From Alicycliphilus denitrificans K601 (GTDB taxonomy: Bacteria > Pseudomonadota > Gammaproteobacteria > Burkholderiales > Burkholderiaceae_C), in contig NC_015422.1 of assembly GCF_000204645.1 (NCBI RefSeq), forward strand, positions 682,001 through 746,000: a DNA stretch of 64,000 nucleotides, written 5' to 3'. Positions within the stretch are counted from its first letter, which is position 1. Every line of letters starts with the position of its first letter. The position numbers and the translations under genes were made by a program. The notes below the pieces were generated by a model. The model saw only the letters and a program-made list of their open reading frames with translations. It did no database searches and was not told the DNA's origin. This document shows positions 16,005 to 26,883 of this stretch, one piece after another.

Positions 16005-17915
16005 ATGTGCGGCATCGTCGGCGCGGTATCCACGCGCAACATCGTTCCCATCCTGGTACAGGGCCTGCAGCGGCTTGAATACCGCGGCTACGACTCCTGC
16101 GGCGTGGCCGTGCACGAGGCCAGCCTGGGCGGGCAGCCCGCGGGCGGCCTGCGGCGCGCACGCAGCACGGCGCGCGTGGCCGAGCTGCTGGCGCAGGTGG
16201 CCCACGACGGCCTGCAGGGCGCCACCGGCATCGCCCACACGCGCTGGGCCACGCATGGCGCGCCGGCGGTGCACAACGCCCACCCCCACTTCAGCCACGG
16301 CGCCGGCGAGGCGCCGGCCGATGCCGCGCGCGCCGGCCGCGTGGCCCTGGTGCACAACGGCATCATCGAGAACCACGAGGAGCTGCGCGCGCAGCTGCAG
16401 GCGCGCGGCTATGTGTTCTCCAGCCAGACCGACACCGAGGTCATCGCCCACCTGGTGGATAGCCTGTACGACGGTGACCTGTTCCAGGCCGTGCGCAGCG
16501 CCGCCGGGAAGCTACGCGGCGCATTCGCCATCGCGGTGATCCACAAGGACGAGCCGCACCGCGTGGTGGGCGCGCGTGCGGGCTCACCGCTGGTGCTGGG
16601 CGTGGGCGACGGCGAGAACTTCCTGGCCAGCGATGCCATGGCGCTGGCCGGCGTCACCGACCAGATCGTGTATCTGGAGGAGGGCGACCTGGTGGACCTG
16701 CAGCTGGGTCGCTACTGGATCACCGGGCCCGACGGCCAGCCGTTGCCTGCGGACAGCCGCCCCGTGCGCACCGTGCATGCGCACAGCGGCGCGGCCGAGC
16801 TTGGGCCCTACCGCCACTACATGCAAAAGGAGATCTTCGAGCAGCCGCGCGCCATCGCCGACACCCTGGAGGGGTTGCAGGGCATCGCCCCCGAGCTGTT
16901 CGACGGCGCGCCCCGGCACGGCCAGCCCGGCGCGGCGGCCTGGCGCGTGTTCAAGGAGATCGACTCCGTGCTCATCCTCGCCTGCGGCACCAGCTACTAC
17001 AGCGGCTGCGCGGCCAAGTACTGGCTCGAATCCATCGCCGCCATCCCCACGCAGGTGGAGGTTGCCAGCGAATACCGCTACCGCACCAGCGTGCCCAACC
17101 CGCGCACGCTGGTGGTGACCATCAGCCAGTCGGGCGAGACGGCCGACACGTTGGCCGCGCTGCGCCACGCGCAGGGCCTGGGCATGCGGCATACGCTCAC
17201 CGTCTGCAACGTGGCCACCAGCGCCATGGTGCGCGAGTGCCAGCTGGCCTACGTCACGCGCGCGGGCGTCGAGATCGGCGTGGCCTCCACCAAGGCCTTC
17301 ACCACGCAGCTCGCGGGCCTGTTCCTGCTGACCCTGGCGCTGGCGCAGGCCAAGGGCCGCCTCTCCGAGGAAAGCGAGGAGCAATACCTCAAGGCCATGC
17401 GCCACCTGCCGGCGGCCCTGCAGGCCGTGCTGGCGCTGGAGCCGCAGGTCATCAGCTGGGCCGAGGACTTCGCGAAGATGGAGAACGCACTGTTCCTGGG
17501 CCGCGGCATCCATTACCCGATCGCGCTCGAAGGCGCGCTCAAGCTCAAGGAAATCAGCTACATCCATGCCGAGGCCTACCCCGCGGGCGAGCTCAAGCAC
17601 GGCCCGCTGGCGCTCGTCACCAGCAGCATGCCCGTGGTCACAGTGGCGCCCAACGACGAGCTGCTGGAAAAGCTCAAGAGCAACATGCAGGAAGTGCGCG
17701 CGCGCGGCGGCGTGCTGTACGTGCTGGCTGACGCCCGCACCAACATCGAGAGCAGCGAAGGCGTGCATGTGATCCGCATGCCCGAGCACTACGGCCTGCT
17801 GTCGCCGCTGCTGCACGTCGTGCCCCTGCAGCTGCTGGCCTACCACACGGCCTGCGCGCGCGGCACCGACGTGGACAAGCCGCGCAACCTGGCCAAGAGC
17901 GTGACGGTGGAGTGA
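16005..17915 (+). CDS. glmS: Glutamine-fructose-6-phosphate aminotransferase
   Basis: This 636-residue enzyme makes glucosamine-6-phosphate, the entry step to UDP-GlcNAc. The N-terminal class II glutaminase domain has catalytic Cys2 in [12 protein letters not shown], and two SIS sugar-isomerase domains follow with [13 protein letters not shown] and STKAFTTQ. The C-terminus [12 protein letters not shown] is the conserved sequence whose coding DNA is the TnsD target in other bacteria. AGGAG lies 8 bp before the ATG. The region from 25 bp after the stop is a putative Tn7-like insertion. Confidence 0.97.
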
Positions 17916-17944
17916 CCGGCACGCTCCGGGGCGGCGGCTTGATC

Positions 17945-17984
17945 GTAAAAATAAACTCTGTAATGTAAAAATTAACTCTGTAAA
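17945..17984 (+). repeat. Tandem 20-bp repeats, putative TnsB sites of the glmS-proximal end
   Basis: GTAAAAATAAACTCTGTAAT is followed immediately by GTAAAAATTAACTCTGTAAA (18 of 20 identical). They begin 5 bp inside the proposed transposon tip. IS21-family ends also contain repeated blocks, so a relic IS21-type end is the main alternative. Confidence 0.6.
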
Positions 17985-18414
17985 TTTTGCATGGAGTTCA
18001 GTCGCTGGGGGAGTTTTTCGTTTGAAGGAAAGTCCCCGTTGGCAAGGTGTCAACTACTCCTGAACGCGCCTGCACTGAAATTTGCTTCTCTGAAAAGTGA
18101 TGTTTCGTCGCAATTAGTCAGTTGACCGTTTCAGGCTGGCAGCCGTCATTCACACGTCAGTCCATGAACGACTGCATCACTCGACAACGGACGCTGGACG
18201 CCTTCATCAACGTGACACGACTGTCATGGTCACTTGTCGACAGCAGCGCCACGAAGGCGCATCTTCATGAACCATCCGAGAGACTCGTGCGCACCATGCG
18301 CTATAGCTGAAATAGCCCTCTGAAAGCGCGCATCGAAGCACCCTTTGACTCGCATCCGGTTCCAATCTGCGAGAGCATGGACAATTACCAAGCGTGCGAG
18401 AAAAAGGGGGCGAA
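17985..18414. other. No gene recognised
   Basis: About 430 bp of lower-GC DNA lies between the tandem repeats and the truncated gene at 18415. Short frames exist on both strands (for example 18122-18310 plus) but none has recognisable features or a good ribosome binding site. It may hold the promoter of the truncated gene. Confidence 0.5.
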
Positions 18415-18518
18415 ATGAGCGTGGCGAGCGTGATCTCAACGGGGGGAGCTGGGGGCGACTTCGAACGACGGGTTGGCGCCTATTTTCTGGGTCTGCTGCT
18501 CACGAAGTCGTTCATGCC
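18415..18518 (+). pseudogene. 5' fragment of a putative defence-type protein, cut by IS21
   Basis: ATG 18415 is preceded by an AAAAAGGGGG ribosome binding site. It opens a frame encoding MSVASVISTGGAGGDFERRV and then GAYFLGLLLTKSFMP before the IS21 end at 18519. The motif STGGAGxxFExxVxAxxLxxLL is, from memory, the N-terminal signature of large bacterial proteins with nuclease and ATPase domains found in defence islands. Only about 34 native codons remain, followed by 21 codons read from the IS end. The rest of the gene is absent from the window. The function of the intact protein is inferred from the motif alone. Confidence 0.5.
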
Positions 18519-18591
18519 TGTTGATTTCCACGCAAAGCTGACCCACCATTTCCATCGAATCTTGACCCACCCTGGTTCGTGAGCTTCACGC

Positions 18592-19395
18592 TCACGTTGT
18601 GGATAAGTTCTTGGTCGCCTTCTCCTTCTTGGTGGTCTGTGGTGGTTGCTGTGCGGAGCTATTCTTGAACCGGTAGCTGTCATTGCCGGTCTCAAGAATA
18701 TGGCAGTGATGCGTGAGCCGGTCCAGCAGCGCCGTGGTCATCTTGGCATCTCCGAACACATTGGCCCACTCGCTAAAGCTCAGGTTGGTGGTGATCACGA
18801 CGCTCGTGCGCTCGTACAGCTTGGACAGCAGGTGGAACAGCAAGGCTCCTCCTGACGTGCTGAATGGCAGGTAGCCCAGTTCATCCAGGATCACCAGATC
18901 GGCATAGGCTAGGCGGTGCGCGATCTGCCCCGGCTTGCCCTGGGCCTTCTCCTCTTCCAGTGCATTGACCAGCTCCACCGTGGAGAAGAACCGCACCCTG
19001 CGGTGATGGTGCTCAATGGCTTGCACCCCGAGGGCTGTGGCGATGTGGGTCTTGCCCGTACCCGGTCCACCCACCAGCACCACGTTGTTGGCGTTCTCCA
19101 AGAATTCGCAGCGGTGCAACTGGCGTACCAATGCCTCGTTCACCTCGCTGTGGCTGAAGTCAAACCCAGCCAGGTCCCGGTACGCAGGGAACCTGGCCAC
19201 CTTGAGTTGGTAGGCCACAGAGCGCACCTCCCGCTCGGCGGTCTCGGCCTTGAGCAGTTGGGACAGGATGGGCTGCGCTGCGTCGAAGGCCGGCGCACCT
19301 TGCTCAGCCAGTTCCGCAACCGCCTGGGCCATGCCGTGCATCTTGAGCTCGCGCAGCATGATCACGATGGAAGCGATGGCAGGGTCATGACGCAT
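18592..19395 (-). CDS. istB: IS21-family helper ATPase IstB
   Basis: This 267-residue AAA+ ATPase of the DnaC/IstB type assists IstA in target capture. Walker A is [12 protein letters not shown] near residue 110 and Walker [14 protein letters not shown] near 165, followed by the STSGG and [14 protein letters not shown] motifs. It overlaps the 3' end of istA by 11 bp, as is usual. The C-terminus is a Lys/Gln/Thr-rich tail. It appears intact. Confidence 0.95.
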
Positions 19396-20935
19396 AGCGC
19401 ACCTCCCTCAATTGGTCATAGCGCAGCACGTTGGCCTGGGGTTCCACAGACAGCTTGAGGGCCTGGGGCGAGGTGACCGGTGCTGGGGCGGGCTTACCGT
19501 CCAGCAGGCGGTGCAGCACGTTCAGGATGTGGGTCTTGCTGGCAGCCCCTGACTCCAGTGCCAACTCCACTGCAGCGAGCACAGCTTGTTCATCGTGGTG
19601 CAGCACCAGAGCCAGAACCTCCACCATCTCTCGGTCGCCGCCTGGCTGCTTCAAGAGGGCGGCCTGCAGGCGCTTGAAGGCTGCTGGCAGTTCCAGGAAT
19701 GGAGCACCATTGCGCAAGGCCCCGGGCTTGCGCTGCAGCACTGCCAGGTAGTGGCGCCAGTCGTACACGGTCTGTCCCGCACCATGGTGGTTACGCTCGA
19801 TCAGGCGCTGATGCTCGCACACGATCTGGCCTTCGGCGGCGACCACCAGGCGATCGGCGTAGACCCGCAGGCTCACCGGCCGATTGGCATAAGGCGCCGG
19901 CACGCTGTAGCGGTTGCGCTCGAAGTGGACGAGGCAGGTGGGTGAGACGCGTTTGGTGTGCTCCACAAAGCCATCGAAGGGCCGGGGCATTGGCATCAAG
20001 TCGTTCTTCTCCTCGGTCCAGATGTCCGCGACGGTGCCCGGCAGCTTGCCGTGCTCGATCTCGTGCCACAGCGCCACGCAGCGCTCTTCAAGCCATGCAT
20101 TGAGATCGGGCAGGCTTGGGAATGGCGGCACTACCTGCCACAGGCGATGGCGGGCATCGCGCACGTTCTTCTCCACCTGGCCCTTCTCCCAGCCCGAAGC
20201 AGGATTGCAGAACTCGGCCTCGAACAGGAAGTGGCTGACCATGGCCGCAAAGCGCGCATTGACGTCGCGCTCCTTGCCACGGCGCACCCGGTCTACGGCG
20301 GTGCGCATGTTGTCGTAGATGCCACGGCGGGGCACACCGCCCAGGACTGCGAATGCATGGTTGTGGGCATCGAACAGCATCTCGTGCGTTTGCAGCGGAT
20401 AGGCGCGCAGGTAGAACGCTCGGCTGTGGCTGAGCTTGAAGTGGGCTACCTGCAGCTTGGTGCGCACGCCGGCGAGAACAGCCCAGTCCTCGCTCCAGTC
20501 GAACTGGAAGGCCTCACCCGGACCGAAGGCCAGGGGAACGAAGGTGCCGCGGCCAGTGGTCTGCTGGGCCACAAGGCGCTGCTCGTGCCAGAGGCGGGCA
20601 AAGGCCGCTACGCGGTTGTAGGAGCCGCCATAACCGAGCGCCTGCAGATCCACGTACATCTGCTTGACGGTGCGGCGCTGCTTGCGGGATCGGCCAGCTT
20701 CCGTCTTGAGCCAGCCAGCGAGCTTCAAGGCGAAGGGATCGAGCTTGGATGGACTGACCCGCTTGGCATAGTGCGGCTCGGCCTCGCCTACGCGCAGGTA
20801 CTTGCGGATGGTGTTGCGCGAGAGGCCCGTGCGGCGGGCTATCTCCCGGATGGACAGCTGCTCTCGCAGGGCCCAGCGCCTGATGACACTCAGTGTTGCC
20901 ACGTCTATCACTCCTGGTCTCCTGCTGCTCAGCAA
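19385..20935 (-). CDS. istA: IS21-family transposase IstA
   Basis: This 516-residue DDE transposase has an N-terminal helix-turn-helix ([20 protein letters not shown]), then a retroviral-integrase-like core with FQFDWSEDW (first Asp), [12 protein letters not shown] (second Asp) and [17 protein letters not shown] (Glu), and a C-terminal Mu-type domain with [20 protein letters not shown]. Length is standard and the frame is unbroken, so the element may be active. It is transcribed from the 21019 end. Confidence 0.95.
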
Positions 20936-20996
20936 AGCAGCAGGTTAGGGTTAGTACGTGGGTCAGGTTTGGATGGAAATCCCGGGGGTTAGTGGG

Positions 20997-21221
20997 TCAC
21001 TTCTGCGTGGAAATCAACATCTCGTCTTCCAGCAGGCTCTTCTGATCGGCGCTGTGCCGCTCGGATTGGGCGGCGAACTTCAGCCGCTTGAGCAGCGCGC
21101 ACTCATAGGTGAGCTTCTCGTTGAGCGCGCGCTGGTGACGCAGTTCGGCCAGCAGGCGCTGGGTCACTTCGCGCAGTTGCTCTGCGTCCAGTTCGCTCAG
21201 GGCTTGCTCGTCGATCACCAT
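20997..21221 (-). pseudogene. tnpC: IS66 transposase TnpC, N-terminal fragment
   Basis: The ATG at 21221 starts MVIDEQALSELDAEQLREVT, then continues with RQRALNEKLTYE-type sequence up to LKRLKFAAQSERHSADQKSL and LLEDEM. This is the leucine-zipper-like N-terminal region of IS66 DDE transposases. Native coding ends at 21020, where the IS21 end begins; the frame closes eight codons later at 20997. The DDE domain is lost. Confidence 0.88.
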
Positions 21222-21303
21222 GGCTGGCAGTGTGCCCGCTCACCCTGGGTCCAGCCATTGACGCATCTCCCGATTGCCACGGCCACGCCCTTGCGCCGAC
21301 GAT

Positions 21304-21636
21304 TCAGACCACGCTGATGGCACCTTGCGAGCCCACACGCTGCCAGGGCAGGCCCAGCACCAGGGCGTTGAGCTGGGCGTGTTCCAACGCCACGTTCGGA
21401 CTGCCCGCAGGTGCCCAGACAAACTTGCCCTGGTGCAGCCGGCGCGCGGCCAGCCACAGCCCCACACCGTCATGTACCAGGACCTTCAGGCGATTGGCTC
21501 TCTGGTTGGCGAAGACGTAGGCATGGTGCGGGTGGGCCGCGCCGAAGGTGGCGATCACCCGCGCCAGGGCCGTGTCCGTGCCCGCGCGCATGTCCAGCGG
21601 GGTGGTGGCCAGCCAGGCCTCATCGATACGGATCAC
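21304..21636 (-). CDS. tnpB: IS66-family accessory protein TnpB
   Basis: This 110-residue accessory protein is required for transposition in IS66 elements. The N-terminus VIRIDEAWLATTPLDMRAGTD, the HHAYVFANQRANRLKVLVHD block and the C-terminal ALVLGLPWQR are family hallmarks. The GTG start at 21636 overlaps the tnpA stop (GTGA), showing translational coupling. It is apparently intact, but the element cannot move without tnpC. Confidence 0.9.
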   Translation of the reverse strand: MIRIDEAWLATTPLDMRAGTDTALARVIATFGAAHPHHAYVFANQRANRLKVLVHDGVGLWLAARRLHQGKFVWAPAGSPNVALEHAQLNALVLGLPWQRVGSQGAISVV

Positions 21637-22070
21637 CGCAACAACTCCCGCAGCATCTGGGCGCACTCGGCGGCGCCAGACAAGGGCCAGTGCACGGTCA
21701 CGGACATGCCGGGGCGCTGGCATTCGATGCGGATGCCGTCCGCTGGCGTTGGCAAGGACGCGGATGGCAGCTCACCAGCAGACGCCGGCGGTACTGCGCT
21801 CAGGTCGATGGGGATAAAGGCCGGGGGTGGGGAAGCAACGACTGCAGTGCTGACGCCAGCTTCAAGACGGTGAAATCCCTGCGCCCATTCCTTGAGCCAG
21901 CGGTGTAGCACGTTGGCGTTCATGCCATGTTGCAGGGCCACCGCCGCGACCGATGCGCCTGGCTGTCGGCAGGCAGCCACCAGCTCGGCCTTGAATTGCG
22001 GGGTGTAGGTGCGGTGCGTGCGCCGCTGCGCATAGCGCGGGGTCTGAGGGTCTTTGAGCATCGTGTCCAC
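21633..22070 (-). CDS. tnpA: IS66-family TnpA (helix-turn-helix protein)
   Basis: This 145-residue protein has an N-terminal IS3/IS66-type helix-turn-helix: YTPQFKAELVAACRQPGASV followed by AAVALQHGMNANVLHRWLKE. The C-terminal half is variable and Pro/Ala-rich. The start could be 22070 or the ATG three codons later (22061). It is the first gene of the truncated IS66 element. Confidence 0.88.
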   Translation of the reverse strand: MDTMLKDPQTPRYAQRRTHRTYTPQFKAELVAACRQPGASVAAVALQHGMNANVLHRWLKEWAQGFHRLEAGVSTAVVASPPPAFIPIDLSAVPPASAGELPSASLPTPADGIRIECQRPGMSVTVHWPLSGAAECAQMLRELLR

Positions 22071-22118
22071 GCCAATGTTGCGTGCACACGATCTTGCTCA
22101 GCCTTACCACCTCATTCA

Positions 22119-22256
22119 AGATGGGTTCGCCAGCCGCATACGGCGAACAAGCTGGCGCGCATTTGCTACGCCACGCTGCGCGACCACGCACCGTTTGACG
22201 AGGCGGCGCGGTTGTGCAAAAAGACCCACCGCCAAAGCTATGTCATGCCAGCCTGA
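22119..22256 (+). pseudogene. Possible C-terminal remnant of an IS110-type transposase
   Basis: This plus-strand frame ends NKLARICYATLRDHAPFDEA, then ARLCKKTHRQSYVMPA and a TGA. The ANKLARI motif followed by a short charged tail resembles C-termini of IS110-group transposases. The frame upstream is cut by the IS66 end at about 22107. Identification is tentative because only about 43 codons remain. Confidence 0.35.
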
Positions 22257-22668
22257 GACACACGCCACGGCCAGTTTCCTTCACCACTTGCGAAGGGTTT
22301 GATCGACCATCATGGCCAATCGGGTTCCTCCCACACCGCACTACGCCGATAACTCTTCCGGCAGCTTGCCTGCCGCTTGCAACGTGTGGCGACGCGGTGA
22401 CGCAGATTCCATGTCGGCACGGACCAGAAAAGAGTCCACTACAGATGCCGGATATACGACTGCAGGTTTTTTACCCCTTGGTCCCCAATCGGTCAGGCTC
22501 TTGCTGTTGTGGGGGAGTCCATATAGGAATGGTTACCCGCACAAGCCCTTCCCAGATGTCGCCGGTTTGGGTCTAACTCCACCATATACAGCCCGCGCGA
22601 ACCCAGACCGCGCCATACATGAAAGAGCGGGGGGCTCGGAAGTCCGGTTGATGCTGTCGGGAAGGTGC
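22257..22668. other. No gene recognised
   Basis: About 410 bp lie between the transposase remnant and the distal Tn7-like end. A 133-codon plus-strand frame (22312-22713) runs through it and into the transposon end repeats, with no recognisable motif and atypical composition. I regard it as non-coding relic DNA. Confidence 0.5.
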
Positions 22669-22806
22669 CCGACGGATTTTCTTTGTTGGAGCGTTCTGGG
22701 AGTCGTCGATTAAGCGATTTTCGACGGACTTTCCAGAACAGACCAGTAGACGACGAATCAACGAGTTATGAGCGGAAGTTCCGACGGACTTTATTTGTTG
22801 CGGTCA
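22669..22806 (-). repeat. Three spaced repeats, putative TnsB sites of the distal end
   Basis: On the minus strand, reading inward from 22806: GCAACAAATAAAGTCCGTCGG (22801-22781), GTTCTGGAAAGTCCGTCGA (22739-22721) and CCAACAAAGAAAATCCGTCGG (22689-22669). The outer and inner copies match at most positions. The outer copy contains AATAAAGTC, the core of Tn7 TnsB sites. Their spacing over about 140 bp resembles the Tn7 left end. Confidence 0.6.
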
Positions 22807-22812
22807 CGGCGC

Positions 22813-26866: not shown

Positions 26867-26883
26867 AATCGCAGGCGTGCGTA

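Follow-up and report, generated by a model that had tools for sequence, protein, structure and literature searches.

Unlike Tn7-type ends behind glmS in Alicycliphilus denitrificans K601: a probable composite scar of two stacked transposons

The window analysed here is a 64,000-nt stretch of the genome of Alicycliphilus denitrificans K601 (NC_015422.1, positions 682,001−746,000, forward strand), in which glmS is followed by a segment, 17940−22806 of the window, with a Tn7-like end on either side. The original prediction regarded this segment as the relic of one Tn7-like transposon at attTn7, the insertion site behind glmS. The position at attTn7 was confirmed, with a right-end type at the 25th nucleotide past the glmS stop codon and a left-end type reaching to 22806. 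The two ends, however, fall into different families, here called A and B, and the segment is probably a composite scar, left by two Tn7-like transposons once stacked at attTn7. The features that carry this reading are as follows.

16005−17915, plus strand: glmS, whose 3' end is the attTn7 recognition region
17940−17983, plus strand: family B right end with the terminus TGATCG and two sites 20 bp apart (17946−17963 and 17966−17983), from pattern search and end comparison
17939−18138, plus strand: right-terminal 200 bp of a B element, 96% identity to locus L057 of genome G297
22665−22806, minus strand: family A left end with the terminus TGACCG, cores at 22792, 22732 and 22680, the site spacing of A left ends and matches in 22 other genomes of 398
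22807−22811, strand not applicable: CGGCG, the 5-mer adjoining the A left end (CGGCT at the proximal flank), a weak feature

The attTn7 region in the 3' end of glmS is recognised by TnsD. In the window, the stop codon of glmS ends at 17915 and the proximal terminus begins with TGATCG at 17940; from this 25th nucleotide the sequence behind glmS reads TGATCGTAAAAATAAACTCTGTAATGTAAAAATTAACTCTGTAA. The tandem 20-bp repeats that had been predicted were found with cores at 17953 and 17973, and the core, searched as 11 bases with up to one mismatch over the whole 64 kb, had no second match elsewhere. The end families were surveyed in 398 sampled genomes of the bacterial family, the source genome counted among these (genomes and loci are referred to by G and L numbers). 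A 24-base pattern of the proximal end, with up to three mismatches, was present at seven places in five genomes including K601 itself; it was exact in three of the four others, and its reversed control gave no match in the 398 genomes. The form of the family B proximal end is TGATCGTAAAAATAAACTCTGTAA.

The distal end lies in inverted orientation with its terminus at 22806, and its three predicted repeats are spaced 60 and 52 bp apart, a spacing also seen in the A left ends of relatives. By the same 11-base test, the three cores were the sole matches in the window. The distal 173 bp were matched in 23 of the 398 genomes including K601, with a best E-value outside that genome of 3.9e-7. The form of the family A end is TGACTCCAACAAATAAAGTCCGTCGG. 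In a plasmid collection, the proximal end was matched in one record and the distal end in none. That the repeats arose by chance and are not transposon ends at all is scarcely conceivable, given the recurrence of the B pattern in four other genomes against a silent reversed control, the E-value of the distal end and the constant position of B right ends, which stood 24 nt behind the glmS stop (+24) in all three cases tested.

When each end was compared with the ends of relatives, the scores separated by family; shuffled sequences reach a score of 17 in this comparison. The best scores of the 46 proximal bases were 46 (B right), 20 (B left), 13 (A right) and 10.5 (A left), with 46/46 positions alike in the best B right end. 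For the 130 distal bases, the best scores were 49.5 (A left), 32 (A right), 19 (B right) and 10 (B left). The proximal end is thus a B right end and the distal one an A left end, and the prediction that both belong to one transposon was not borne out. A single Tn7-like transposon with ends at 17940 and 22806 would explain the inverted orientation, the site number and spacing typical of right and left ends, the likeness of the flanks and the predicted similarity of the two termini, which exceeds chance (the score was reached by 1 of 2000 shuffles over 26 bases and by 3 of 2000 over 46 bases). Against it stand the fit of each end to a different family and the existence of separate B left ends, which were present in G297, Acidovorax delafieldii and plasmid pACDW039_1; a single element is thus improbable.

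The flanking 5-mers, CGGCT and CGGCG, were as the original prediction had given them and agree at four of five positions, but their interpretation as a 5-bp duplication fared less well. Agreement at four or more positions occurred in 53 of 2500 local 5-mer pairs, and 3% of the window's 5-mers match CGGCT to this degree, which puts chance agreement at 2−3% and leaves the duplication with little weight. Moreover, because the ends belong to different families, the 5-mers are no evidence of a single insertion.

Between the two ends lie an element of the insertion sequence (IS) family IS21, a partial IS66 and a transposase fragment.

18415−18519, plus strand: possible start of a cargo open reading frame, 35 codons, interrupted by the IS21-family element
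18519−21019, minus strand: IS21-family element with istB (18592−19395) and istA (19385−20935), terminal repeats alike at 25 of 28 positions
21020−22141, minus strand: IS66 remnant with tnpA, tnpB and a tnpC cut off after 67 codons
22146−22253, plus strand: C-terminal fragment of another transposase, without a Pfam match

The IS66 remnant was 100% identical over 1122 bp to an intact IS66 of pALIDE01. It adjoins the IS21 element and retains 67 of the 504 tnpC codons; the rest of IS66 was not present on the far side of IS21, and DNA must therefore have been lost up to the IS21 edge. This agrees with the IS decay that had been proposed for the segment. A target duplication of IS21 was considered as a further sign of deletion and dropped: none of the seven exact copies in the genome, the window copy included, showed a visible one, and its lack at the window copy is therefore uninformative. 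The 35-codon frame running into IS21 had no Pfam or PADLOC match and may represent the start of a B cargo gene. The fragment at 22146−22253 we take to be IS110-like. As a separate observation, the IS21 element appears to have expanded recently in K601, with eight full-length places (seven identical, one at 99%) besides two partial exact copies.

No tns genes were expected to remain in the relic, and none were recognised. A tblastn search of 16001−24000 with 16 Tns-type proteins, taken from A- and C-type elements (C being a third end family, described below), gave no match better than E 0.002, and the two strongest fell in glmS and in IS21. These queries, among which the Tns-like set of the plasmid was not included, thus recognise no tnsA, tnsB, tnsC or tniQ/tnsD in the element; B's own genes could escape them. 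The TnsD model PF15978 had no match in the whole source genome, while among the 25 genomes searched it gave a match of any strength in 10 and one over the cut-off in 8.

A route from two transposons to this arrangement can be proposed. TnsD-type targeting would read the 3' end of glmS, which would be intact after each insertion, and both end recognition and target immunity would be tied to each family's own sites. For Tn7 and related transposons, PMC11406308 and PMC12452197 describe target immunity as an effect of the ends that an element itself carries. Since immunity depends on an element's own sites, a transposon with unlike ends could escape it and insert beside a resident, nearer to glmS. 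A B element would in this manner have come to lie next to glmS with an A element on its far side. Loss of DNA up to the IS21 copy, or several losses including one at that edge, would then have removed the left part of B, the right part of A and any transposition genes, and the B right end and A left end would have been left behind as a false pair.

Abutting ends in relatives bear on the first part of this route. Elements separated by gaps of 3−5 nt were found as A-left/A-right in L032 and Acidovorax kalamii, as B-left/A-right in A. delafieldii and as B-left/B-right in G297. An A right end in G020 contains a B terminus 58 bp inward, and on pACDW039_1 (position 320122) 11 nt that match the A terminus exactly are followed at once by a B right end. 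The site behind glmS is thus used by both families in Comamonadaceae, and elements with unlike ends are stacked there. The A ends behind glmS stood at +15/16 in six of ten cases and at +22 to +24 in four (one of the ten was read by eye); that of A. delafieldii was at +24.

The pairing seen in the window recurs. A B right end paired with an A left end spans 4.9 kb in the window and 3.85 kb in A. kalamii, and the reciprocal pair, A right with B left, spans 17.6 kb in A. delafieldii. No partner end was found for the metagenome-assembled genome of L095, for the B ends in G297 and G008 or for plasmid position 320122. The A. kalamii unit holds, beside its A end, a C-terminal piece of tnsC (127 residues) that is 71% identical to the tnsC at 97 kb on the same contig; at the DNA level, the two are 95% identical over 378 bp. 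It also holds a lone IS21-type terminal repeat (25/28).

Several observations weigh against two stacked elements. Three of them would also fit a hybrid mobile unit, in which one A and one B end would move together and a TnsB, or two cooperating sets, would pair unlike ends. First, all three glmS-borne B-end segments with a found partner are mixed, in both polarities. Second, the flanks are near-duplications both in A. delafieldii (CATTTG/CATTG) and in the window, although serial insertion at one position would yield the same. Third, the similarity of the window termini above chance implies that families A and B are related. Such a hybrid unit is nevertheless unlikely: the flanks of the A. kalamii unit do not match (acctc/atggc), and that unit had no second copy in the 398 genomes, where other matches covered no more than about 700 of its 3854 bp. 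In addition, IS21 remains lie inside both B-right/A-left cases, and pure pairs exist, A/A in L020 and L029 and B/B on the plasmid (6.3 kb). It is only a slim prospect that in Comamonadaceae the A and B families at attTn7 swap halves and form mobile mixed-end units whose transposases pair unlike ends. If they did, mixed-end mobility would mean that islands behind glmS evolve through end swapping.

The remaining points against stacking concern what is missing around the B end. No trace of an A end was found between glmS and the B end. This would be expected if homologous recombination with another strain had swapped the glmS region, so that a B right end took the place of the A right end with no insertion of B beside A. 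That course would require a second crossover inside unlike sequence, whereas the IS21 junction offers a simpler path, and it is accordingly a poor candidate, somewhat less credible than a single transposon. Homology to B stops at 18138, and only its position assigns the DNA on the left of the junction to B; 18139−18518 was unmatched in the plasmids and in the loci fetched outside the source genome. No intact B-A tandem of the species was present among the genomes at hand. Finally, no cognate B transposase or tnsABC was found in the stretches fetched around the B ends of G297, G008, A. delafieldii and pACDW039_1. With these points taken into account, two stacked transposons followed by loss of DNA at IS21 remain the favoured explanation.

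The segment 17936−26880 was absent as a whole from the three genus mates with a readable glmS flank (G002, G003 and G006). In G003, glmS is followed by manC without an element, and in G002 by a tandem repeat and then manC; G006 rejoins the window sequence at 26883. The repeats had been expected to be missing where no element is present, and neither window end was found in any of the four genus mates in the samples. The first gene past the A left end is given below.

22813−23067, minus strand: MXKDX repeat gene (TIGR02953, 26.2 bits, below the cut-off of 41)

Together with genes for an MsrP-like oxidoreductase and a cytochrome b and with two-component genes, it forms a block (22813−26866) that adjoins the relic. 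This MXKDX/MsrP block is missing between glmS and manC in G002, G003 and G006, and the first 444 bp (22807−23250) had no DNA match in any of six genus mates. The tandem repeat behind glmS in G002 (L005, 1891−2606) consists of 5.2 copies of a 137-bp unit, 99% alike. The 137-bp repeat also lies behind glmS in G006 (L004/L010), and each unit includes the glmS 3' end once more, which amounts to additional attTn7-like sequences.

The A family was represented in 27 loci (L020−L046), each with at least one place matching the 27-base distal terminus at 20 or more positions. Among the A ends, left ones show three sites, at intervals of about 60 and 52 bp, and right ones a second site 20 bp on; L029, L033, L034 and L041 have a single A site each. 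Several A ends lie directly behind glmS. Two of the units behind glmS with A ends on both sides are very small, 291 bp (L029, 1235−1525, with one site at each end) and 1.5 kb (L020, 44−1585), and would have needed movement in trans. Defence genes were observed past B and A right ends (L057, 12827−17437, and L066, 7930−14083), namely those for a phospholipase of the cyclic-oligonucleotide-based anti-phage signalling system (CBASS) type, a cyclase, E1-E2 and JAB proteins, and type I restriction and methylation proteins.

Candidate transposition genes of A-end elements were found in relatives. PF15978 was matched within 14−26 kb of an A end in G210, G177 and G020, and L066 has TnsD and TniQ domains. 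Based on size, order and mutual similarity, the genes beside TnsD in these three genomes are putatively tnsA, tnsB and tnsC. The TnsC-like proteins gave weak to clear AAA matches, and the TnsA- and TnsB-like proteins tested matched no Pfam or NCBIfam family. For the TnsB-like protein of A. kalamii, 66 homologues were obtained among 8000 scored candidates, those with the most shared words. All seven with a readable source name were called ‘hypothetical protein’, and nine of the 66 bear the precomputed Pfam accession PF27135, which no scan returned. D316, D403 and E438 were invariant in 24 aligned TnsB-like proteins, which is in line with the residue spacing of a DDE transposase triad. The best PDB profile match was Tn7 TnsB (7pik) at E 0.043, not significant alone. 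A single TnsB group for all A ends was rejected; the TnsB-like proteins of G177/G210 and of G327, which is taken to be A. kalamii KNDSW-TSA6, are about 30% identical and both are linked to A ends.

Two gene sets were considered as B's transposition genes and set aside. On pACDW039_1 (L130, 14138−20360), a TniQ gene has three neighbours whose annotation is ‘hypothetical protein’; they may be tnsC, tnsB and tnsA and stand far from those of A and C, and the set could not be tied to B ends. The TnsA/TniB/TniQ set of G297, presumably located at comM, lies in a stretch in which no B end was found. The same plasmid carries (L132, about 1440−1520) a sequence resembling the glmS 3' end, as read by eye, before an A terminus and B right end, possibly a decoy attTn7. 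The third end family, C (TGACCGTATAAATAAAGGGTGTCA), occurs in G008: starting behind glmS, 60.7 kb lie between two C ends (L134, 17665, to L092, 18343), and this stretch contains a TnsABCD-like set as well as further A and B ends.

Overall, the scar at attTn7 is real, well preserved and of a known kind, and it was most likely left by two elements and not by a single one. A cargo-sized segment bordered by inverted Tn7-type ends is not necessarily one transposon, and ends that do not belong together can be paired when boundaries are called at attTn7; islands built at a single preferred site may accumulate and erode in this way. Since the TnsA- and TnsB-like proteins are missed by Pfam and NCBIfam and, where the source gives a name, are called ‘hypothetical protein’, Tn7-like islands in this bacterial family may be undercounted. 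The suggestion of a little-described lineage with ends unlike Tn7 was supported. The literature searched, in which most subscription papers were out of reach, contained no description of families A, B or C, and the terms ‘burkholder’ and ‘comamonad’ are absent from the main text of PMC8649781 and PMC10293859. Families A and B thus look under-described, although Tn7-like islands at glmS are already known.

Loss of DNA adjacent to, and bounded by, an IS element is a known process. As in such deletions, the IS copy in the window stands at the exact edge of a truncated neighbour; unlike them, the loss joins two transposon halves and mimics a single element. With Tn7 and the Tn7-like transposons that target glmS, the window shares insertion about 25 bp behind the glmS stop, a right end that faces glmS and has its sites in tandem, and a left end with spaced sites, and the relatives with A ends carry TnsD and, by our assignment, TnsA/B/C genes. 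It differs in its end sequences, in the lack of a Pfam or NCBIfam match for the TnsA- and TnsB-like proteins of these relatives, and in holding no complete element and ends from two families. The idea, cited in PMC3384475, that accessory DNA is gathered behind glmS by Tn7-like insertion applies to the window as well; compared with the accessory islands cited there, the window contains mixed-end remnants fused across two end families.

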